Below are positions 3,039 through 17,651 of a DNA stretch of 43,717 nucleotides, in pieces. This DNA is from a virus: positions 1 to 43,717 of IMG/VR virus record IMGVR_UViG_3300048586_000258; one strand, written 5' to 3'. The notes under the pieces are model-generated. The model did no database searches and was not told the origin of the DNA. It saw only the letters and a list, made by a program, of their open reading frames with translations. A program made the position numbers and the translations under genes. The first letter of the stretch is position 1. Each line of letters opens with the position of its first letter.

Positions 3039-3317
3039 TCAGCCCTCCGCCTGGGGGCGGACTTCAACCCAGTCCTCGGCCAGCATATCCGTCTGGCTGG
3101 CCAGCCAGGGCACAACCTTGCCCTCTGCGTCTTTCATGTCGATGTGCGGGCGGTACGTGACGCTCGCGCCTTCGCCCATGATCGACAGCAACGGCTCGCG
3201 GTTCACCACGAAATTGCTGCCTGCGACCAGAAAGAGAAACATTCCCTTTCCATTCCAGCCCTCGCGCGCCACGCGGCGCCCTTCCTTGAGGGCTGCTATC
3301 GCCTTGCCAAAATCCAT
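3039..3317 (-). CDS. tad2: Tad2-family (DUF2829) anti-Thoeris protein
   Basis: A 92-residue protein with the full signature of the DUF2829/Tad2 family: MDFGKAIAALKEGRRVAREG at the N-terminus, then WNGKGMFLFL (21-30), a middle HIDMKDAEGKVVPW (58-71) and LASQTDMLAEDW (72-83). Characterised Tad2 proteins are tetramers that bind and sequester the cyclic ADP-ribose signal made by the Thoeris ThsB TIR protein, so that the effector ThsA is not triggered. The length is typical. The start ATG 3317 has a GGAGG Shine-Dalgarno inside the terminase tail. Its place directly behind terL means expression with the late genes. That this copy blocks Thoeris in the host is inference from the family. Confidence 0.88.
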   Translation of the reverse strand: MDFGKAIAALKEGRRVAREGWNGKGMFLFLVAGSNFVVNREPLLSIMGEGASVTYRPHIDMKDAEGKVVPWLASQTDMLAEDWVEVRPQAEG

Positions 3318-5080: not shown

Positions 5081-5391
5081 TTTTCGCCCTCCGGATGCCC
5101 GAAAAAGTGGGATGGCCTCACACAGAGGGGGAGAGAGTGTCGCGCGCAGGCCGCCCCCCCGGGGGTCGCGCCGGCGGCCGCGATCGCCAGGGCGCGAAGG
5201 GGGGTGGGGTCGAGCGCCAGGCGGGCGGCCTCCACTTCGCGGATCTGAGCGAGGGCCTCGAGCTGCTGCGCTCGAGCTCGTTCGCGCCAGCGCTGTTGCT
5301 CGGGCGTGCGACCAGAGGCGAAGGCGAGCGCGCCGGGTGGCGATTGATTTTCGATCAATTGGCCGATGCCTGTTTTGTTCAGCGATTTCAT
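5077..5391 (-). CDS. Hypothetical protein between putative TerS and TerL, 104 aa
   Basis: Not recognised. The N-terminal two thirds is a charged helical stretch (QQRWRERARAQQLEALAQIR, residues 33-52). The last 25 residues (SLPLCVRPSHFFGHPEGEN) look unlike the rest and overlap the terL ribosome-binding site. ATG 5391 overlaps the end of the preceding gene. Its place between the two candidate terminase genes suggests a packaging role, but no domain supports it. Confidence 0.6.
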   Translation of the reverse strand: MKSLNKTGIGQLIENQSPPGALAFASGRTPEQQRWRERARAQQLEALAQIREVEAARLALDPTPLRALAIAAAGATPGGAACARHSLPLCVRPSHFFGHPEGEN

Positions 5392-6041
5392 GGCGTTACC
5401 TCGTCCGTCCGCGAACCATCGTCCGCGCGCCGAATGGGCGGGGCGCTAAGCCCTTGATTTCCTTGGGTTGCCATCGGCATGGGTGGCGGTGCCACGCGAC
5501 GCGGCTGAGGCGTCACGTCGCGCGCCCCAGCTGGGCCAGGCTGCACCACCTGGGCGGTCTGTCCGCCCGCCACGAACACTTGCACCGGCGCCTGCGGTGC
5601 CGCGTCGGGCGTGACCTTGGCCAGGCCATAGGGCAGCATCGCCTCGAGCGAGCGCAGCTGCGCCGTGAACACGAACTGGAACGTCGCCAGGCGCTGCGCC
5701 GTGCTCGGGGCCGAGGGTGATCCCTTGTAGCCCGTGGCGCCCGCCTCGGCCCAGGCGAGCACCTGCTCGGTGCGGGCCATGGCGCTCAGGAACGCATCCT
5801 CAGTCGAGGCGAGCCCTGCCATCTCGGCCAGGACGTCCTCGGGCAGGCGGTAGCCCTTGGTCGCAAGCCACTCGCGCATCTGGCTGGTCGCCTTGCCCTT
5901 GCCGCGTGGCGTGCGCCCTGCATCGCCCGGCTGAGGCTCGTCGGGCAGGAAGGTGAGCTGCTCGCCAGCGGCCTTGGCGGCCGTGATCCGCTCGGCAGCG
6001 TCCCGCGCCAGCTCTTCGAACTTGGTGACAGGCCCGACCAT
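5388..6041 (-). CDS. Putative terminase small subunit / packaging-associated protein
   Basis: A 217-residue soluble protein. Residues 1-80 are charged and helical (FEELARDAAERITAAKAAGE, then a Lys/Arg/Gly linker and a possible DNA-binding MREWLATKGYRLPEDVLAEM). Residues 100-145 contain a second helical block and the C-terminal third is Pro/Gln-rich and probably disordered. The call as small terminase rests mainly on position: just upstream of terL and next to the repeat-rich gap a TerS might recognise. ATG 6041 is preferred; a TTG two codons earlier is also in frame. No strong Shine-Dalgarno is seen. It could also be an unrelated virion protein. Confidence 0.5.
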   Translation of the reverse strand: MVGPVTKFEELARDAAERITAAKAAGEQLTFLPDEPQPGDAGRTPRGKGKATSQMREWLATKGYRLPEDVLAEMAGLASTEDAFLSAMARTEQVLAWAEAGATGYKGSPSAPSTAQRLATFQFVFTAQLRSLEAMLPYGLAKVTPDAAPQAPVQVFVAGGQTAQVVQPGPAGARDVTPQPRRVAPPPMPMATQGNQGLSAPPIRRADDGSRTDEVTP

Positions 6042-6465
6042 GGTCAAAACCTACCCATTTCTAGTGATTTCAGAGGGTTAGACGAACCCGCTACGCCTGT
6101 TCCGGCGGCGTAGTGGGTTCTGTAGTGGGCTGATCTTCTCTTTTCCTCTATCTTTTCAAGGATATAGAAGAAGGTCACTACGCCACTACGCCACGACAGA
6201 CATATCTCATGCGTGATCGGGCGCACGCTCGCACATACATGTGTGTGAGGGGTTTTGGCGTAGTGGCGTAGTGGCGGGCGGTAACGTCTTGATTTGGCTC
6301 GCCAAACACCCACTACAGAGGCCACTACAAGCCCACTACGCTTGGGCTGGACCGTAGTGGCCCTGACCCGTGGCTGACGCCATAGGCCCGCGTCAATAAT
6401 GGCACAATATGGGTCGGGGCGCGAGGCCAGAAAATCGAGGCGCGTCAATGTCAAGAGAAACTCCA
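6042..6465. promoter_or_regulatory. Gene-free repeat region with nine GTAGTGG/CCACTAC copies (candidate origin or pac)
   Basis: This is the longest stretch without a convincing gene. GTAGTGG lies at 6110, 6122, 6260, 6268 and 6354; CCACTAC at 6183, 6310, 6322 and 6333; a partial CACTAC at 6176. Several extend to GGCGTAGTGG. The repeats form inverted pairs: 6084-6097 with 6107-6120 (14 bp, one mismatch), 6176-6193 with 6256-6273 (18 bp, perfect), and 6320-6328 with 6354-6362 (9 bp, perfect). A pyrimidine-rich, A/T-richer tract lies at 6131-6175, and CACAT-AC-ATGTG at 6232-6243. Helicase and primase genes lie on one side, terminase genes on the other. The leader and any promoter for the packaging and head genes must also lie here; no clear -35/-10 pair was found. 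Confidence 0.7.
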
Positions 6466-8487
6466 TCACGCGAACTCGTCCATATCTTGTGGCCCGGAAG
6501 AAGACGGCGCAGGCGCTCCCTTGGCCGCTCGGTGGCGATCTTGTGGGAACATTTCGAGGCCCGGTAGTGACGAAAGCGGGATCTCGACGCCGCGCGATTT
6601 CACGCCAGCAAGGGTGCGGGGGACAGAGGCAACGACAGCGCCCTTCACCCGCTCGAGCGACTGCTTCCACGCGCCACCAGCCCATTGCGTGCCTTCGAAC
6701 AGGCGCAGCAGAGGGGCTGCCTTGGCGTTGCCCACGAACAGGTGCGGCTCGCTGTCCTTGTTGTGGACGATGCGAAGAAGCAAAGGCGCGAGCTTGGCAT
6801 TGGCGGCCTGCTTGCGCTGTTCCTGGCCGTGTCTGTCCGCCGCGAACTCGCTCAGCAGGTTCTCTGGCGCAGCTGGGGCGCCCGCCGCCACCTGCAGCCA
6901 TTGGGCTACAGTAAACTGTTCACCGCGGCGGAAGATGTCGACGTACTGGGACAGCAAGTGGACCAGGACTTCATCGGCATCGGTACCCAGCTCGGCCAGG
7001 TCGGCCCCGATGTAGCGCGCGATCTTCTCGGCCCAGCCATTGAGCTCGTCAGGCAGCGGCATCGCCTCGGCCGTCATCATCTGCGCCATGGCCAGGGTGG
7101 TCGCCCAGTTGTCGGCGTTGCGACCAGCAATACCTTGCTCGGCGAAGGCTTCCCGCCATAGCTCGAGGCGCTGCGTCCAGGTCGGCCATCTGTCGATCAG
7201 CTGGCGCTTGATGATCGCACCACGCTCGCGCCATCTGTCTGCCCTCATGGCTGGGGGCTTAGCCCCTTCCGGAAAGGGTTGCAGGGTTAGGGTGATGATC
7301 CGCTGCAGGTCCTGGCTTTTGAGGATCCCAGGGATCAGCACGGATGAAAACAGGAAGGTCGATCGCAGCTGGCCGCTCGATCCCTTCTGGTCGCTCGATC
7401 CGCGAACCCACCGGCCACCAGATGACGCGACCCGGGCTGTCTCGATGATCGAGCGTTCCTTAGCACTTCCCGTGTCGCCGGGCTCGAGCTCGTCCAGGGC
7501 GATCGGCAAGGTCGACTGGCCCATGAGCGAGGCAATCCCCCGTGCGGTGGCGTCAGGGCTCTGGATGAGCCCCTTGTCGCCCCCGTGCAGCATGTTCATC
7601 AGGCGCTGCAGGGCGCTCTTGCCGGTGCCGGGGCCTCCGGTGAGCCAGTAGGCGGGACGCCAGTCCAGCGCCCCGCCGAAAGCCTGGACGCCCATCATGC
7701 CGAGCGCGATCGTGGCGTCGATCTCAGGGCGCTGCCATTGCCATGTGCCGAGGAGCTCGAGGAGCTCTGGTACCGGGTCTGCGTGCTTCCCAGACGACGC
7801 CGGGTGCGGGATCGGCGGATAGGCCGGGTAGATCTTGTTCTGGTGCGTCGTGGGCTTCTGCGTCTCGCCATTCATGATGAGCGCGTCGCCGGTGTGATAG
7901 ATCAGGTTGCCGTCGTCATCGGTCCAGGCGCCCACGCCGCGAACCGAGCCTTCCGGATCGAAAAGCCCTCGCTCGCTGCACGCCTGAAACATAGCGCTGG
8001 CAGCGAGCTGGTGGTTGAAGTGCTCGGGCTTGATCTTTAGGTCACCCGTCTTGCGGTCCAGCGAGACGGCCGGGAAGTTGTGGTAAAGTTTCGGCAGCAT
8101 GTGACCGAACAGTGCCATGATCGCCTGAGCGTCATGCTTGCCGACGGGACGCATCTGACCGTGAACGTCGAGGTAGTAGTAGGTGCCGCCGTTCACACCC
8201 AACGGGACAACCGGGCAATCTTCCCATATCAGGCCCCGCGGCCTTGCGGGCTTTCGCCCCTTGGGCGGTTTTGCGGCCGGGGACGTGTCGGGTGGGTCCA
8301 GTCCATCGCCTGGTCGTGCCTCCGGCTGCGCCTCGATTGGCAGAGCCTCGATCGGCTTGGGGACAGGTACCCTGCGTGGCTTTGGGGCTCTAGCTGCCGG
8401 CGCTGGTTTGTGTGCGGGCTTTCCACCCAACGGGGCAGGGGGCGCCGCCGGATTTGACAGCCAGTCGTCGTTGTTGGCCTCGGTCAT
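6466..8487 (-). CDS. AAA+ / D5-like replicative helicase
   Basis: A 673-residue protein from ATG 8487, which overlaps the stop of the previous gene (ATGA). After a long Pro/Ala/Lys-rich disordered N-terminus (about 1-95) comes a region with GGTYYYLDVHGQMRPVG, then a P-loop ATPase: Walker A GGPGTGKS near residues 281-288 and Walker B IALDELE near 325-331. A C-terminal helical region may bind DNA. The arrangement matches phage helicases encoded beside Toprim primases, which unwind DNA for the host polymerase; no phage DNA polymerase is seen in the window. The C-terminus (about the last 25 residues) is again Pro/Ser-rich. Directly downstream is the repeat region, a plausible loading site. Confidence 0.8.
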   Translation of the reverse strand: MTEANNDDWLSNPAAPPAPLGGKPAHKPAPAARAPKPRRVPVPKPIEALPIEAQPEARPGDGLDPPDTSPAAKPPKGRKPARPRGLIWEDCPVVPLGVNGGTYYYLDVHGQMRPVGKHDAQAIMALFGHMLPKLYHNFPAVSLDRKTGDLKIKPEHFNHQLAASAMFQACSERGLFDPEGSVRGVGAWTDDDGNLIYHTGDALIMNGETQKPTTHQNKIYPAYPPIPHPASSGKHADPVPELLELLGTWQWQRPEIDATIALGMMGVQAFGGALDWRPAYWLTGGPGTGKSALQRLMNMLHGGDKGLIQSPDATARGIASLMGQSTLPIALDELEPGDTGSAKERSIIETARVASSGGRWVRGSSDQKGSSGQLRSTFLFSSVLIPGILKSQDLQRIITLTLQPFPEGAKPPAMRADRWRERGAIIKRQLIDRWPTWTQRLELWREAFAEQGIAGRNADNWATTLAMAQMMTAEAMPLPDELNGWAEKIARYIGADLAELGTDADEVLVHLLSQYVDIFRRGEQFTVAQWLQVAAGAPAAPENLLSEFAADRHGQEQRKQAANAKLAPLLLRIVHNKDSEPHLFVGNAKAAPLLRLFEGTQWAGGAWKQSLERVKGAVVASVPRTLAGVKSRGVEIPLSSLPGLEMFPQDRHRAAKGAPAPSSSGPQDMDEFA

Positions 8488-8780
8488 TGCGCTGGCCCCA
8501 CCAAGCTGACGCGCTGCTCCCAGGCTTTCCCACTGTCTTCGTTTGCGATTGCAAGTGCGGCGCAGCAGGTCGGACAAATGCGAAAGGTGACGACCACGCC
8601 TTCATAGGTTTCTGTCCTTGCCCGGTGGCGTGTCTTGGCATGGATGTCGCCTGCGCAAATGATGCAGCCCTTCTCGTGGTCCTTGGCAGCAACGACGAAA
8701 CGGTCGGAAAAAACGCGAACGTCGCAGTCGCGATCGACCCAAGGCTCTTGTGCCAGGCACTTTGCTTCATCGAACGTCAT
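8484..8780 (-). CDS. Small Cys-rich protein between primase and helicase, 98 aa
   Basis: A 98-residue protein with two cysteine pairs, CIIC (about residue 39-42) and CPTC(C) (about 69-73), with His residues between, consistent with one zinc-binding knuckle. No known family recognised. ATG 8780 overlaps the primase stop and its own stop overlaps the helicase start, so the three are translationally coupled. A role as accessory factor of the primase-helicase is inferred only from this place. The longer open frame upstream is a shadow of the primase gene. Confidence 0.72.
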   Translation of the reverse strand: MTFDEAKCLAQEPWVDRDCDVRVFSDRFVVAAKDHEKGCIICAGDIHAKTRHRARTETYEGVVVTFRICPTCCAALAIANEDSGKAWEQRVSLVGPAQ

Positions 8781-9922
8781 GCTGCCCCCTGCTCGTTGAT
8801 TGCGCGCTTGAGCGCGTCGTTCAGATCCTCGCCCGGGATCTCGCTGCGCCAGACGCGCACCAGGCGGCCGGCCTTGGCATGGGCCTGCACGGCCGCCTCG
8901 AAGGCGTCCTTGGCTTGCTGGTGCTCGTCGTTGTCGCACAGGAGCACGACTTCAGAGACGTTCCGGGGCAGCTCCACCCTGCCCATGTTGGTCAGGCTGT
9001 AGGCCGCCAGGACGCGCTCCGATGGCCACAAAAGCATGGCCGAAAGGCATGTCTCGATCCCTTCGCCGATGATGACACGAGTACCAGGCGCGCATTGGGC
9101 AAGCGGCACGCCCTTGCCTCCCTTTGGTCCAATGCCAGACGACAGGCGGATCGAGGCGCCCTGGATCGAGCCGAGCACCTTCTTGTCGTCGGGCAGGTTG
9201 GCTTTGGTCCAGCCGCGATCGCCCAGGTGGAGATATGTCCGATGGCAGGCGACGATCTGGCCGCGGCCGTTCACCATCGCGGCAACCATGCCTGGCAGCT
9301 TGCTACGGGTCGTCGTGACCTCGCCGGTCTCTGGATCCGTGTCTTCGCGGTAGTAGCCAAGCGCGGCATGGTATCGAAGCGCACCAGGTGGGTGCGGCAA
9401 GTCCGATAGGTCTATGCCGCGCCCGGCCAGATAGTACTGCACCGGCGTGCCGAACAGATCCTCGCGGCCCGATAGGTAAAGCGCCTCCGCGTGCTTCTGG
9501 CGCTTGATCGCCTCGGCCGCGGCGGCTTCTTCTGCAGCCTTGCGCTGCACTTTGGCGCGCTCGATCGCCTTCGCCCTGGCGATGCGGATCTCAGGTGTTT
9601 CCGTTTCGAGGCCCAGGAATGCCCGCGCCTCACGGAATGCGGCCGTGTTGTCGGAAAGGCCGAGCGACATGCGGATCAGGTCGATCACGTCGCCCCGATC
9701 GCCGGTCGCATAGTCGTTCCATCGTCCGATCTTCGGCCCTGAAAGATGAACGCAGAAGGATCCGACCGAGCGATCGGCCCGGCCGGGGTTCAGCGTGAAG
9801 TACAGACCCTTGTCGATGTAGCTGCCCGACGCGCGCGGCGCGTAGTGATCGACCACTTGGTCGATGCGCGCGTGCAGCATGTCCTTGATCTCGTCAATGC
9901 TGTAGGTCTGCCGGGCGGACAT
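8777..9922 (-). CDS. Toprim-domain DNA primase
   Basis: A 381-residue protein. The N-terminal about 100 residues have the CHC2/DUF7146-like pattern ending RWNDYATGDRGDVIDLI. The middle is a charged Ala/Lys/Glu helix. The C-terminal Toprim domain starts near residue 280, with the catalytic Glu in IIGEGIETCLSAM (E287) and the acidic LLCDNDEH (about 327-334). It would make RNA primers for replication, with the helicase encoded two genes downstream. The classical Cys/His zinc ligands of CHC2 primases are not apparent. ATG 9922 lies two bases after the previous stop. Confidence 0.87.
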   Translation of the reverse strand: MSARQTYSIDEIKDMLHARIDQVVDHYAPRASGSYIDKGLYFTLNPGRADRSVGSFCVHLSGPKIGRWNDYATGDRGDVIDLIRMSLGLSDNTAAFREARAFLGLETETPEIRIARAKAIERAKVQRKAAEEAAAAEAIKRQKHAEALYLSGREDLFGTPVQYYLAGRGIDLSDLPHPPGALRYHAALGYYREDTDPETGEVTTTRSKLPGMVAAMVNGRGQIVACHRTYLHLGDRGWTKANLPDDKKVLGSIQGASIRLSSGIGPKGGKGVPLAQCAPGTRVIIGEGIETCLSAMLLWPSERVLAAYSLTNMGRVELPRNVSEVVLLCDNDEHQQAKDAFEAAVQAHAKAGRLVRVWRSEIPGEDLNDALKRAINEQGAA

Positions 9923-9924
9923 GG

Positions 9925-11043
9925 TCAGGCGGCCGCCTGCGCCGAAAGCATCCGCTCGAGGGCGGCGAGGACATAGTCACGCTTGAATGTGCGCGCTCTG
10001 GTCAGCACGTTGAACCGAGGCTTTATCTCTGCGAGCGGCACGCTCAGCTCGAGGGCGATCTCGTGATCAGGCCACCCGGCTATCGCAAAGTGCAGAAGGT
10101 CGCGATCACGCTGCAGCGTCCAGACTTTGTCGCGCTTCACTTGGCTGACGTGGGTTTCGAGCTCGGTGAGGCCATGAAGGTTCAGGGGTGAACCGGTGCC
10201 CGCCACCACCGGTTCGGACGCGGCTTGCGGCAGGGCTTGGGCACCCTTCGCGTCCTCGGGGCCTTCGTTCACGGTTTCGGTGCGCACCGGATCCGTGACG
10301 GGCGGGCCCGCTGGTATTGCTATCATGTTCTCGACGTTGTTGCCTGCTTTCCGCTCGGCCAGGCGCGCCATGATCCGGCCTTTCAAGCCAGCCTTCGCGC
10401 GAAACTGAGTGCCCTGAACCGGGCGCTGCAGCACGCCGGCCGCGATCTCAGCCGCGGCATTGAGGGACAGCCCGGCGTGGAACATCTGCCAGGCGCAGGT
10501 TTCGATCAGAAGGGTATCCTCCTCGGCGCTCCAAACGCCCTGCGCCAGCGGCGCGGGATCTAGGGTCACCGGGGCGGCGCATTCCCTCGCCGCCCCGGTG
10601 CCTTCCCCGGCGGGTTCTGGCGATGCCTCTGACACATCGCGCTCGGGCTCGGGCTGTTCCGGCTCGGCCGCGGCCGGGGAAGGGGATTGCGCGACCAACC
10701 CGGCGGCGCGCGCGTATTTGTCGGGATCCTGGTCGAAGCTCGGTCCGGTCCATGCCTCGATGGGATGGCCGTCGATATGCTTCAACGTCGAGGGCGAAAG
10801 CGTTACTGCGCTATCAAACATGTTTTCTTCGACGGGCTCAGGCGGATCGGCCTCGAGGCCGGGCATGGTCCAGCCGGTGTGAATGACGATGTCGCAGCCA
10901 GGGGTGCAGTCGAACGTCGGGTCGAGGCCGGCCCTGGTCAGGATCTCCCCTGCCTCGGAAACGCAACGCAGCATCGCTGCGAGGTATTTCAGACCGTTGA
11001 GCTTAAGATTGTCCAAGTTCATCGTTGGTTCGGATCGGGTCAC
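9925..11043 (-). CDS. Myb/SANT-like DNA-binding protein with Pro/Glu-rich linkers
   Basis: A 372-residue protein if begun at GTG 11043, which overlaps the previous stop as GTGA and has GAGGAG upstream; ATG 11022 is an alternative without a good Shine-Dalgarno. A SANT/Myb-type helix cluster starts at VWSAEEDTLLIETCAWQ, ending in KAGLKGRIMARLAERK. A second helical block near the C-terminus (VWTLQRDRDLLHFAIAGW, then a helix-turn-helix-like EIALELSVPLAEIKPRF) may be another such module. The linkers are rich in Pro, Glu and Ala and probably disordered. Two DNA-binding modules upstream of primase and helicase suggest an initiator or regulator; candidate targets are the 6.1-6.4 kb repeats, by inference. 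Confidence 0.6.
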   Translation of the reverse strand: MTRSEPTMNLDNLKLNGLKYLAAMLRCVSEAGEILTRAGLDPTFDCTPGCDIVIHTGWTMPGLEADPPEPVEENMFDSAVTLSPSTLKHIDGHPIEAWTGPSFDQDPDKYARAAGLVAQSPSPAAAEPEQPEPERDVSEASPEPAGEGTGAARECAAPVTLDPAPLAQGVWSAEEDTLLIETCAWQMFHAGLSLNAAAEIAAGVLQRPVQGTQFRAKAGLKGRIMARLAERKAGNNVENMIAIPAGPPVTDPVRTETVNEGPEDAKGAQALPQAASEPVVAGTGSPLNLHGLTELETHVSQVKRDKVWTLQRDRDLLHFAIAGWPDHEIALELSVPLAEIKPRFNVLTRARTFKRDYVLAALERMLSAQAAA

Positions 11044-11402
11044 GCGGCGCTCTCCTCGGATGCGGGGGAATGGGATGCGCGCCAGGCGTCGATCGCCATG
11101 CTGGCCCGCCAGAACAGAAACTCGTGCATCGCCCCGCTGGCGGTCAGCATCGCCTGGCACCAGGCCACGCTGCCGCCTTTCTGGTTGCGTCGTGCGGCGG
11201 CGTTGAGCGCCTCGCCGGCGGCCTCAGAGAGGGCCACCATGGGCGTGATGCTGCGATTGATGTGGGGCAGGAGCTCGACCAGCGCCTCGAGCGCCAGCTC
11301 GGTGCGGCTGTCCTCGATCCGCTGCGTCGCGAGGAAGCCCACCAGGTTCGCGAGCGACTGATCGGCCAGGGACAGACGCGGGCCAGACTGGGCGGGGCTC
11401 AT
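11040..11402 (-). CDS. Hypothetical helical protein, 120 aa
   Basis: Not recognised. Mostly alpha-helical and Ala/Leu-rich, with LVGFLATQRIEDSRTELALE and a later AMHEFLFWRASMAIDAW. It has no motif that gives function and no clear membrane segment. It starts at ATG 11402 (ATGA overlap with the small membrane gene before it) and its stop overlaps the GTG of the Myb-like gene, so it belongs to the early leftward operon. Confidence 0.7.
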   Translation of the reverse strand: MSPAQSGPRLSLADQSLANLVGFLATQRIEDSRTELALEALVELLPHINRSITPMVALSEAAGEALNAAARRNQKGGSVAWCQAMLTASGAMHEFLFWRASMAIDAWRASHSPASEESAA

Positions 11403-12766: not shown

Positions 12767-13387
12767 ATGGATGAGAAGTGGTTCAAAGCACAGCAGAAAA
12801 AAGCGGGCGTCACTGCCGAAGATATCGCAAATGTGCTCGGTCGAGACCGCTCGGTCGTGTCTCGCATCTACACTGGACGGCAGCGGATGAGCTTGGAATG
12901 GGCAAAGGCGTTCGCTAAGGCGCTCGAGGTGCCCTTGGCCGAAGTTCTTGAGCATGCCGGTACGGCAGATGAAGAAACGGCTCGAACTCTTCGCCCTGGG
13001 TTTGCCGACAGTGATGCTGCAGTCTGGGCACCGCAGGCCGGAATGGGAGATGGACGGGAGATACGCGCAACCGCTGCAACGCTTGGTGGCGCGCGCGCCG
13101 GCATCGACATTTGGCGGGTCAAGTCTAGAGCGATGGCTCTTGGTGGCTACCTTGAGGGCGACTTCTTCCTTGTAGACACCAATCAATCGGAACGGCCGCA
13201 GCCCGGCGATGTAGTACTCGCGCAGCTCTACAACAACAGTTCCGGTACGGCCTCAACGGTGCTTCGGCGATTTCAGCCACCTGTCTTGGTTGCCTCAAGC
13301 GTAGATCCGGACGACATGCGGGTTCATGTCGTCGATGGCGTGAATGTCGTTATAAAAGGCAGGGTTATAGCCAGCTGGCGCATGTAG
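12767..13387 (+). CDS. CI-like repressor with S24-type domain lacking the Ser-Lys dyad
   Basis: A 206-residue protein. Residues 10-60 are an XRE helix-turn-helix (AGVTAEDIANVLGRDRSVVS, then WAKAFAKALEVPL). The C-terminal 90 residues follow the LexA/CI fold: WRVKSRAMALGGYLEGDFFL, GDVVLAQLY, TVLRRF, and a final VIKGRVIASW. In self-cleaving relatives SM and a K in the later strand are the catalytic pair; here the Ser position is Ala122 and the Lys position Arg167. It would keep the lytic operon silent, binding the CACAAA-type sites. Without the dyad, RecA-stimulated self-cleavage seems unlikely, so induction may use another route. No clear Shine-Dalgarno; the transcript may have a very short leader. 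Confidence 0.82.
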   Translation: MDEKWFKAQQKKAGVTAEDIANVLGRDRSVVSRIYTGRQRMSLEWAKAFAKALEVPLAEVLEHAGTADEETARTLRPGFADSDAAVWAPQAGMGDGREIRATAATLGGARAGIDIWRVKSRAMALGGYLEGDFFLVDTNQSERPQPGDVVLAQLYNNSSGTASTVLRRFQPPVLVASSVDPDDMRVHVVDGVNVVIKGRVIASWRM

Positions 13388-14749: not shown

Positions 14750-15198
14750 GCGGCATGCAGCAGATCGGGTCACGACCGCACCCGCTCGATACCCTTCCGC
14801 GCCACGAGCGCCGCGCAGCACTTGCCGCAGAGGCGATGCACCGAAAGTACGGCCAATGGGGGGCGTGGGAGACGCTCACTTTTCCGCCCGGATCAGCGGG
14901 GCGCTCTTGGGCTGCGACGTTCACGAAAGTGCATCGCAACAAGGTGTTTTCCGTTCTGGACCGCGACGATTTCAGCGGCGCGCGCCACCTGGCGGTGTCC
15001 AGTCTGAGCGGAATTCGCCCTAGTTGGCACGAGATGCAGCGGATCAAAGACGATCTCGCGGGCGAACGCGCCACGGCTGTCGAGGTTTATCCGCCGCGCT
15101 CGGAGATCATAGACGATGCCGACATGTTCCACATTTGGGTGTTGCCGGGCGCGCTACCTTTTTCGCTTTATCGCGCCTCTGAAAGGCAAACGCCGTGA
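14746..15198 (+). CDS. DUF7694-like protein
   Basis: A 150-residue soluble protein. The conserved part is residues 60-140: VHRNKVFSVLDRDD, ARHLAVSSLSGIRPSWHEMQ, RIKDDLAGERATAVEVYPPR, then DADMFHIWVLPGALPF. This pattern recurs in proteins of many alphaproteobacterial phages and prophages (DUF7694), function unknown. It overlaps both neighbours by four bases, inside the xis-int run, so it is expressed with the integrase. No membrane segment or catalytic motif seen. Confidence 0.75.
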   Translation: MSGMQQIGSRPHPLDTLPRHERRAALAAEAMHRKYGQWGAWETLTFPPGSAGRSWAATFTKVHRNKVFSVLDRDDFSGARHLAVSSLSGIRPSWHEMQRIKDDLAGERATAVEVYPPRSEIIDDADMFHIWVLPGALPFSLYRASERQTP

Positions 15199-16400
15199 CA
15201 CGTAAACCCCGCTCGCCCATCGGTGACGCCCCCTCTCGCCTGCGCCAGCGCCTCCGTACGGATGGCACCTGGCGCGTTTGGTGGGAACCTCGCGCAGCTG
15301 AGCGCGGGCTGGGCTTCGCCGTAGTCGAGCTCGATGCCGATCGCGCGGCCTGGTCGATCAAGGAAGCCCGCCGGCTGAACGCTGAGGTCGACAAGGCGAT
15401 CGAGACGGGCCAGCGCCGCGCAGCTCGCCCGACTGGGCGCACGATGTCGGATCTGATCCGGGAATATCGCCAGTCGATCGCCTTTCGCGAGGATCTCGCC
15501 CCTAAGACGCAGCGCTCCTATGGCGCGCTCCTCAATCAGATCGAGGACAAATGGGGGCACCGGCGCGCGATGGACTTCGACAAGCCGGTGATGTTCGCGT
15601 GGTACCAGGCGCTCTACAACGGCAAGAGCGCCCGGATGGCCCAGGCGCTGATCCGCCAGATGTCGATCCTGTTCAGCCATGCCGAGCTGCTCGGTTGGCG
15701 ATCGGAAGGCAGCAACCCGTGCTTCAATCTTGGTGTGCGCACCCCGCGCGGCCGCTCGAGGGTGGCGAGCTGGGATGAAATCGAGGCGCTCCTGCTGGCG
15801 GCCGAGGCGCTCGGCCGCCACGCCATGGCCCTGGCGATCCGCCTGAGCCTTTACCACGGCCAGCGGGAAACCGATGTTATCCAGGCCACGCGCGGGGCGT
15901 TTCAGCTGCGAATGGCGCGGCCGTGGGGCGAAAAAGAGGAACGGCCGACATGGGTCTGGTTCTTCCGCCGGTCCAAGCGCAAGAACGACGCTTCGCTGCC
16001 CGTCCATGCCGAAGTGATCCCCTTTCTGCGCGCAGCCCTGGCCGATGCCGGCACGGCCGAGAAGCCGCGCCTGCCCACTGATGCGCTCCTGGTCGATGAA
16101 GCGGTCGGCCGGGCCTATGACGAAGATCTGTTCGCCAAGCGCTGGCGCGAGATCCGCGCGAGGGCGGCCGAGCTCGATGGCATGGCCGACATCACCACGC
16201 TGCAGTTCCGGGATCTGCGCCGCACCTTCGGGGTGCTGGCGCGCCAGGGCGGGGCGAGCGCCGATGACACGGGCGACGTTCTCGGCAACTCGGCCGCGAA
16301 CGATCCCCAGCTGGGCGAGATCTACATGCAGCCGACTTTCGACACGACCAGCCGCGCGATCGCGGCGGTCCAGAGCCCAAAGGAGAAAAACCGGAAATGA
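15195..16400 (+). CDS. int: Tyrosine-type site-specific integrase
   Basis: A 401-residue recombinase. The N-terminal core-binding region runs to about residue 185. The catalytic part has Arg224 (HGQRETDV), basic strand FFRRSKRKN (Lys261/263), the box RDLRRTF with Arg342, and the nucleophile Tyr377 (GEIYMQP). The His of the HxxR box is Arg339 here, a substitution I recall in other integrases of this type. It inserts the phage DNA at tRNA-Asn by recombining attP (18532-18578) with the host site. It is 2.1 kb from attP, with cargo genes between. ATG overlap with the DUF7694-like gene. Confidence 0.92.
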   Translation: MTRKPRSPIGDAPSRLRQRLRTDGTWRVWWEPRAAERGLGFAVVELDADRAAWSIKEARRLNAEVDKAIETGQRRAARPTGRTMSDLIREYRQSIAFREDLAPKTQRSYGALLNQIEDKWGHRRAMDFDKPVMFAWYQALYNGKSARMAQALIRQMSILFSHAELLGWRSEGSNPCFNLGVRTPRGRSRVASWDEIEALLLAAEALGRHAMALAIRLSLYHGQRETDVIQATRGAFQLRMARPWGEKEERPTWVWFFRRSKRKNDASLPVHAEVIPFLRAALADAGTAEKPRLPTDALLVDEAVGRAYDEDLFAKRWREIRARAAELDGMADITTLQFRDLRRTFGVLARQGGASADDTGDVLGNSAANDPQLGEIYMQPTFDTTSRAIAAVQSPKEKNRK

Positions 16401-16750
16401 GCAAGCTCCGTCTGGCGCCGCCCGGCGCTAAGCCCTCGAAAAACGCGCACCTGGCGGCGATGATGCCGCCCTTTGGCGAAGTACCGTTCGCTCGCCTCAA
16501 GGCCGCCTACGATGAGCTGCGCGCGGCCTGCAGGGCCGAGGGCACGCCGCGGATCCAGGACGCGATCGACGCCTGGGAACCGCTGGCGGATTTCGCGTTC
16601 CAGCGGCCGACGCTGAGCGAGGCCGACATTGCCGAGGTTCGCGCCTGGTGGGACGTCCTGCCGACGACTCGGGCTGTCAGGCAGGATCTCTGCAGCAGCT
16701 GCGGCCGGCCGTATGGCTGCAATCATGAAGAGGATTGCGCCTTTGCCTGA
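16397..16750 (+). CDS. Hypothetical protein with C-terminal Cys cluster, 117 aa
   Basis: A 117-residue protein. Most is helical (FARLKAAYDELRAACRAEG; then a IQDAIDAWEPLADFAFQRPT stretch). The end CSSCGRPYGCNHEEDC (residues 98-113 region) could hold one zinc ion. It starts with an ATGA overlap on the int stop and its last 26 bases overlap the phosphoesterase start. Not recognised. Confidence 0.65.
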   Translation: MSKLRLAPPGAKPSKNAHLAAMMPPFGEVPFARLKAAYDELRAACRAEGTPRIQDAIDAWEPLADFAFQRPTLSEADIAEVRAWWDVLPTTRAVRQDLCSSCGRPYGCNHEEDCAFA

Positions 16751-17651
16751 CTATAGCCCCAACCTTTGCCTCTACCACGCCACCTGCGACGACGGGTTCA
16801 CGGCCGCTTGGGCGATCTGGTTGCGTTGGCCGCTCTGCGAGTTTCGAGCGGTCCAATACGGTCAGCCTGCACCTGACGATGTGGCTGACAAGCATGTCCT
16901 AATCGTAGATTTCTCTTGGCCGGCGGATGAGCTCGAACGCATGGCCATGTCGGCGCAGACTGTCTTAGTGCTCGATCATCACAAAACGGCTGAGGCCTCT
17001 TTGCAAGGGATGCACCGGATCGTGCGGCCCACCTACGAGAATGTTCTTCGATGTTTTGCTCGTATGGTCGGCGGTCCGAGAGAGCGCATCCTGGTCGAGT
17101 TCGACATGGAACGCTCTGGCGCTCGGATGGCGTGGAACTTTGCTCACCCTGGATCAAACCCGCACATCCTTGTCAACCTTGTCGAAGATCGTGACCTGTG
17201 GCGCTTCCAGTTTCCGGAAACTAAGCCGGTGCGGATGCTACTGCAGTCGGTCCGCCATTCGTTCGAAGGTTGGTGCGAAGTAGCAGACCAGCTGCGGACA
17301 GACCTGCCTGGCTCTGTTCGGACCGGGCAGGCAATCCAGCGCTTTTACGAGGCGCGGGTCGAGGAAATGGCAGACGCAGCTGAGCTGCAGTCGATTGAAG
17401 GCTGGGAGAACGTCCCCGTGGCACACGTGCCGTACGCTTTTGTCAGTGACGTTTGTCATCGGCTCCTGCAGATGCACCCAACGGCGCCCTTTGCGGCGGC
17501 CTGCGTCACCGCACACGGTGGGACAACCTACAGCTTGCGGAGCGATGACGGTCGGCAAGACGTGTCGGCGATCGCTAAGGCTCGAGGAGGAGGCGGACAC
17601 AGAAACGCGGCAGGGTTCCGCCTGGAACAGGGATCCTTCCAAAATGCCTGA
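16725..17651 (+). CDS. DHH/DHHA1-family phosphoesterase
   Basis: A 308-residue protein with the full DHH-DHHA1 set: motif I LYHATCDDGFTAAWA (residues 16-30), motif II VLIVDFSWP (D62), motif III VLDHHKTAE (D84-H85-H86), motif IV VEDRDLWRF (D155, D157), and the DHHA1 loop GGGGHRNAAGF (288-298). Enzymes of this family (NrnA, RecJ-type) bind two divalent metals and hydrolyse very short RNA or linear and cyclic dinucleotides. In a phage it could recycle nano-RNA or destroy nucleotide signals used by host defence. Substrate is not shown. ATG 16725 is the only start that keeps motif I close to the N-terminus. Codon use is less GC-rich than that of int. Confidence 0.85.
   Translation: MKRIAPLPDYSPNLCLYHATCDDGFTAAWAIWLRWPLCEFRAVQYGQPAPDDVADKHVLIVDFSWPADELERMAMSAQTVLVLDHHKTAEASLQGMHRIVRPTYENVLRCFARMVGGPRERILVEFDMERSGARMAWNFAHPGSNPHILVNLVEDRDLWRFQFPETKPVRMLLQSVRHSFEGWCEVADQLRTDLPGSVRTGQAIQRFYEARVEEMADAAELQSIEGWENVPVAHVPYAFVSDVCHRLLQMHPTAPFAAACVTAHGGTTYSLRSDDGRQDVSAIAKARGGGGHRNAAGFRLEQGSFQNA

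Follow-up and report, generated by a model that had tools for sequence, protein, structure and literature searches.

An iteron array whose word changes together with residues of the adjacent helicase is a probable replication origin in a phage family of alphaproteobacteria

We analyzed a complete virus record of 43,717 bp, hereafter the window, and found that the gap following its helicase gene contains an array of short repeats (iterons), at which copying of the phage DNA very probably starts. The array is located directly downstream of the helicase gene, its layout is kept in related phages, and its repeated word covaries with the C-terminal domain of the helicase. These results support the proposal of replication-origin iterons made in an earlier reading of the nucleotide sequence alone (the sequence-only reading). 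Since position, layout, fold, and covariation fit the mode of the SaPI Rep proteins, we interpret the region as the origin, with the helicase serving as the initiator. We propose with considerable confidence that the gap is a replication origin and that a D5/SaPI-Rep-like helicase encoded by the phage itself binds its iterons through the C-terminal domain. The features are summarized in Table 1.

The exact heptamer (GTAGTGG/CCACTAC) occurred 12 times in the 43,717 bp, compared with a mean of 1.30 and a maximum of 4 in 100 dinucleotide shuffles. Nine of the 12 copies were located within 251 bp (6110 to 6360); the others (884, 17871, and 40488) were close in number to chance. The array comprises 12 sites when the one-mismatch copies at 6088, 6175, and 6191 are counted in. 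The sequence-only reading had described nine heptamers in about 250 bases with inverted and tandem repeats, and all of these were located again: a perfect 18-bp inverted repeat (6176–6193/6256–6273), perfect 9-bp inverted repeats (e.g., 6320–6328/6354–6362), a near-perfect 14-bp inverted repeat (6084–6097/6107–6120, 93%), and the tandem heptamer pair at 6260/6268. The heptamer that it had singled out was thus in strong excess (12 against 1.3) and clustered in the gap. The A+T-rich tract (6132 to 6171) is a candidate unwinding element. A clear switch of GC skew was not seen at the array, and the skew was uninformative as an origin marker. The iteron at 6191 to 6197 has the same word as the closest relative (GTCGTGG) and is possibly a relic of an earlier word or a product of recombination. 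An imperfect inverted pair, CCCTGACCC (6361 to 6369) and GGGTCGGGG (6411 to 6419), is located immediately beyond the array and is similar in relatives.

As the sequence-only reading had claimed, the region lies between replication and terminase genes. The helicase, Toprim primase, and Myb-like genes are on one side, and the genes for a putative small terminase (TerS, 219 aa, assigned by position only), TerL, and portal protein are on the other. The window also contains an integrase gene (15195 to 16397) and a repressor-like gene (12767 to 13384), which suggests that the phage is temperate. A DHH phosphoesterase-like gene (16629 to 17648) adjoins the integrase gene, and a Tad2-like (Thoeris anti-defence 2-like) gene (3039 to 3317) is located between the TerL and portal genes.

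Table 1 Positions of the iterons, neighboring elements, and genes in the window, and of domain-bearing proteins in relatives (L loci).
Feature	Position	Strand	Remark
Inferred replication origin, gap between helicase and putative TerS genes	6048..6465	no strand	418 nt, 12 iterons; aligned with 15 relatives
Iteron 12, degenerate GTAGCGG	6088..6094	-	one-mismatch copy
Iteron 11, GTAGTGG	6110..6116	+	exact copy
Iteron 10, GTAGTGG	6122..6128	+	exact copy
A+T-rich polypyrimidine/polypurine tract (CTATCTCCTTGAAAAGAAAGA type in relatives)	6132..6171	no strand	alignment with relatives
Iteron 9, degenerate GTAGTGA, third in 8-bp-period tandem	6175..6181	-	one-mismatch copy
Iteron 8, GTAGTGG, second in 8-bp-period tandem	6183..6189	-	exact copy
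Iteron 7, GTCGTGG, word of closest relative L018	6191..6197	-	one-mismatch copy
Spacer, mostly alternating purine-pyrimidine (ACACACATGTATGTGCG type), splits array halves	6205..6249	no strand	similar in relatives
Iteron 6, GTAGTGG, in tandem pair	6260..6266	+	exact copy
Iteron 5, GTAGTGG, in tandem pair	6268..6274	+	exact copy
Iteron 4, GTAGTGG	6310..6316	-	exact copy
Iteron 3, GTAGTGG	6322..6328	-	exact copy
Iteron 2, GTAGTGG	6333..6339	-	exact copy
Iteron 1, GTAGTGG	6354..6360	+	exact copy
219-aa protein, putative small terminase	5388..6047	-	position only
703-aa D5/SaPI5-Rep-like AAA+ helicase, inferred initiator	6466..8577	-	Foldseek matches; weak sequence matches
Helicase C-terminal region (residues 519–703), inferred iteron-reading domain	6469..7023	-	covariation
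Codon of K660, weaker link to iteron base 3	6598..6600	-	covariation
Codons of T655 and L656, tracking iteron bases 5 and 6	6610..6615	-	covariation
381-aa Toprim primase, same replication module as helicase	8777..9922	-	
Myb-like two-domain protein, fast-evolving, about 372 aa from likely ATG, syntenic	9925..11160	-	
Proteins with the recurring domain, in relatives	L041:18072-18908, L032:18563-19423, L077:17462-18361, L020:17868-18941, L086:17093-17947, L046:17080-17934		

The relatives were taken from IMG/VR as well as from genomes, those of Rhodobacteraceae among them. No similarity was found between the DNA of the region and cultured phages, and when prophages were surveyed in 249 sampled genomes belonging to the same family as one host genome, six gave a match. 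About 12 sites were found in the gap behind the helicase gene of 67 related phages and prophages, mostly in the order < >>> << >>> << >, with tandem sites 8 bp apart and similar spacers. The 67 loci carried 33 words, nearly each lineage having its own. Each word consists of a constant GT and 4–5 variable bases (GT-N3-N4-N5-N6-N7), as in GTTGTGG, GTTGCAG, GTAGCGG, GTCGCTG, GTTTCAG, and GTTAGGT, and the bases after GT differ between phages at most or all sites together. In the closest relative (L018; helicase 89% and putative TerS 96% identical), exact GTAGTGG was absent from the gap and GTCGTGG was found at the corresponding places. GTAGTGG is specific to this phage and is not kept even in its closest relative. 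When exact copies of the heptamer were counted in relatives, the number was near zero, which is misleading because the word differs among phages. Of the region, whose conservation in related phages the sequence-only reading had named as a test, the architecture is kept and the word is not. L138 and its near-twin L140 have a very similar C-terminal domain, yet no array was found at the expected place. Two related prophages in a single host genome, Oceaniglobus trochenteri G4, carry the words GTGTTAG (L046) and GTTGTGG (L132), a coexistence that is consistent with a drive by incompatibility and is no proof of it.

To relate the word to protein residues, alignment columns were scanned against each base (residue numbers are those of the window helicase). 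The first scan covered 529 helicase, 340 primase, and 58 Myb C-terminal domain columns in 61 non-redundant phages. For base 5, helicase T655 was an outlier (MI 1.33 bits, z 20.2), followed by its neighbor L656 (10.4). The second scan, to which the putative TerS was added as a control, covered 1017 columns of helicase, primase, and putative TerS in 45 common phages. T655 was the clear outlier for base 5 (z 14.5; next, 8.1), and L656 was the top column for base 6 (z 9.5; next, 7.1). K660 showed high MI with base 3 (0.90) and ranked fourth by z, and a clear reader column was not seen for base 4; bases 3 and 4 are less well explained. Residue 655 corresponded to base 5 as T to T (26/26), R to C (14/14), K to C (4/4), H to C (2/2), and Y to G (5/7), so that R, K, or H pooled gave C in 20 of 20 cases. 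Residue 656 corresponded to base 6 as L to G (31/37) and F to A (11/15), and residue 660 to base 3 as R to T (15/16), S to C (6/10), and Q to A (5/9). From these alignments, the helicase C-terminal domain appears to give the iteron specificity.

We examined this covariation with held-out loci and with phylogenetic comparisons. The registers of the training words (67 loci) were set semi-manually, and kinship was only partly controlled. The held-out loci came from searches for similar primases, for prophages, and in phage records, and their words were called by a script that takes the register from the GT anchor and information content; because of this procedure, words with two GTs are ambiguous in register. 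Base 5 was predicted correctly in 20 of 24 held-out loci (permutation p 5e-6). The four misses (L188, L196, and the related L199 and L217) were all distant, and therefore the code is not unchanged across all more distant lineages. Base 5 changed at least 18 times on the helicase-core tree. Among greedily matched nearest pairs, all 11 that differed at base 5 also differed in residue class, and 16 of 18 that were equal at base 5 kept the class. In the L031/L021 pair, at a core distance of 0.13, GTTGTGG changed to GTTGCTG together with T to R. From the window to L018, base 3 changed from A to C together with K660 to S; these two phages are 93% identical in the helicase core, 75% in the C-terminal domain, and 98% in the primase.

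The C-terminal region was modeled by AlphaFold using 61 sequences (pLDDT 86.6), and residues 655–656 and 660 were placed on the adjacent strands (654–656 and 659–661) of a predicted beta-hairpin. Foldseek matched the full helicase to NrS-1 (E 1e-7), the SaPI5 primase-helicase (7ola, E 6e-7), and the D5/E5 helicases of ASFV and poxvirus (MPXV), with overall E of 1e-7 to 1e-5; sequence matches were weak (DUF927; 5dgk, E 0.025). As judged from the modeled fold, a D5-like AAA+ helicase core is present. For the C-terminal domain, no significant match was found among solved structures (Foldseek) and family profiles. A weak recurrent Foldseek match, not significant, was TcpK (prob 0.30–0.35, DNA-bound chains), the winged-helix protein of plasmid pCW3 whose beta-wing reads 9-nt tandem repeats (PMC6137059) and which, in contrast to the helicase, is a conjugation accessory protein. 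Two matches were obtained among predicted viral proteins, the one named being an uncharacterised protein of Synechococcus phage S-CAM8. The C-terminal region is a probable DNA-reading domain that has no name in the protein libraries searched. In several relatives, the domain again forms the end of proteins other than the helicase, and the domain-bearing proteins that were fully read (L041, L032, and L077) have a BRO-N-like N-terminal part. The reading residues of the recurring domain can differ from those of the helicase copy in the same phage, and no iterons were found upstream of the BRO-N-fused copies.

The array may instead control transcription, with the helicase domain or the BRO-N-fused copies binding it to regulate the leftward late operon rather than to initiate replication. 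The array is situated immediately upstream of this operon, and several relatives carry a copy of the domain joined to a BRO-N-like one. We consider this improbable, as the covarying domain is part of a replicative helicase, and an ordered set of 12 sites, accompanied by an A+T-rich tract and adjoining the helicase gene, is consistent with an origin of a SaPI-like initiator (PMC7581432); transcription control and origin function are, however, not mutually exclusive.

The sequence-only reading had proposed the Myb-like protein as a possible reader of the iterons, in which case module exchange would produce the helicase correlation as a side effect. Most iteron phages encode this protein upstream of the primase; it evolves fast and has variable recognition helices. 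However, these helices hardly differ between the window and L018 despite the change of base 3, and in several array-bearing phages (L042, L043, L104, L113, and others) the Myb protein was not detected. None of the 58 aligned columns of its C-terminal domain was among the top for any base in a scan restricted to that alignable domain, the middle domain being variable. Furthermore, module exchange would not pick out a pair of neighboring helicase residues for a pair of neighboring bases. The Myb-like protein was rejected as the main iteron reader, since the residues of its C-terminal domain do not change with the word, and we regard this assignment as quite improbable. In L042, an Albimonas prophage, a protein that by eye resembles an OmpR-type winged-helix protein (about 5191–5674, upstream of the primase) takes the place of the Myb-like gene.

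Even less probable is a pac site bound by the neighboring small terminase, the other function considered in the sequence-only reading. The array adjoins putative terminase genes, with a homologue of the 219-aa gene downstream in 57 of the 67 iteron loci. Beyond this arrangement nothing in support was found: the columns of the putative TerS failed to follow base 5 (best z 3.5, whereas the helicase reached 14.5), its sequence in L018 matches that in the window at 96% identity despite the different words, and ten distant phages keep the array while no homologue of the 219-aa gene was detected in them. The idea that the repeats, many of them inverted, form the arms of a folded structure, in RNA or single-strand DNA, that compensatory changes maintain is hardly credible and was set aside because the shared word and the covariation with a protein account better for what is seen: the word tracks residues of that protein and is the same in a phage's copies, even those with no facing partner, whereas independent stems would drift apart.

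The preferred reading, an origin recognized by the helicase, has its closest parallel in the SaPI Rep and SCCmec Cch2 initiator helicases, whose iterons lie downstream and are recognized by the C-terminal domain (PMC7581432). The likeness extends to the D5-like AAA+ helicase, the iteron origin directly downstream of its gene, the primase in the same module (here) or fused, and the C-terminal domain as the iteron reader (putative here). In contrast to those elements, the present system belongs to an apparently temperate podovirus-like phage family of alphaproteobacteria, its 12-site array is mirrored, its word varies by lineage with residue-base covariation, and the C-terminal domain of its helicase has no detectable sequence or fold match to a solved structure.

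Coevolution of word and reader has precedents in geminiviruses (PMC2974675) and in PLE/ICP1 (PMC8263062). In geminiviruses, changes in the origin iterons accompany changes in a small number of residues of Rep, comparisons have led to proposed pairings of amino acids with bases, and replication is incompatible between viruses whose specificities do not match (PMC2974675, citing Arguello-Astorga and Ruiz-Medrano). Short origin iterons vary together with a few residues of the reader (putative here) in both systems, whereas the geminivirus Rep is an unrelated rolling-circle HUH protein with fewer iterons and the covarying protein here is an AAA+ helicase. In PLE and ICP1, the origin iterons and the reader domain of RepA diversify, and the domain is reused in a second protein, the nuclease Odn (PMC8263062). 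Diversifying iterons and a putative reader whose domain also occurs in a second protein are found here; the PLE iterons are, however, about 30 bp with another reader, and the second copy here is a BRO-N-like fusion in which no nuclease was seen. The O protein of lambdoid phages is not a helicase. It is an initiator that binds several iterons beside an A+T-rich tract, with the origin in the middle of the O gene, according to the excerpt cited (PMC7466680). Several iterons next to an A+T-rich tract, with putative initiator binding, are common to both; the lambdoid origin differs in lying inside the O gene, and the same excerpt describes no comparable diversification.

In our model, about 12 iterons of an 8-bp-period word would flank the purine-pyrimidine spacer and the A+T-rich tract. 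The helicase C-terminal domain would bind the iterons directly via the predicted beta-hairpin, and the helicase would assemble on both array halves, melt the A+T-rich tract, and then load itself, working together with the adjacent Toprim primase. In this family the word diversifies with GT fixed and the next 4–5 bases shifting in concert at most or all sites, and helicase residues 655, 656, and 660 shift to match bases 5, 6, and 3. It is a guess that this diversification is driven by incompatibility with related prophages or satellites, or by escape from origin-aimed attack. We also tentatively raise a broader possibility: the C-terminal beta-hairpin may represent a new DNA-reading domain with a near one-residue-to-one-base code, re-specified many times under competing prophages, satellites, or origin-directed attackers, and its BRO-N-fused copies may be regulators or weapons aimed at origins.

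The phage family, for which searching a phage collection gave no DNA match, thus appears to recognize its origin in a way already known elsewhere, and its natural residue-base code is unusually clear. Reading of SaPI origins by a C-terminal helicase domain was already known. In the literature, we found no description of a phage family whose origin word changes this often with the residues traceable. The approximately 33 natural origin words with matching readers provide a test set for how initiator specificity changes while the origin is not lost, and the residue-base code offers a route to predict the compatibility of related prophages from sequence.
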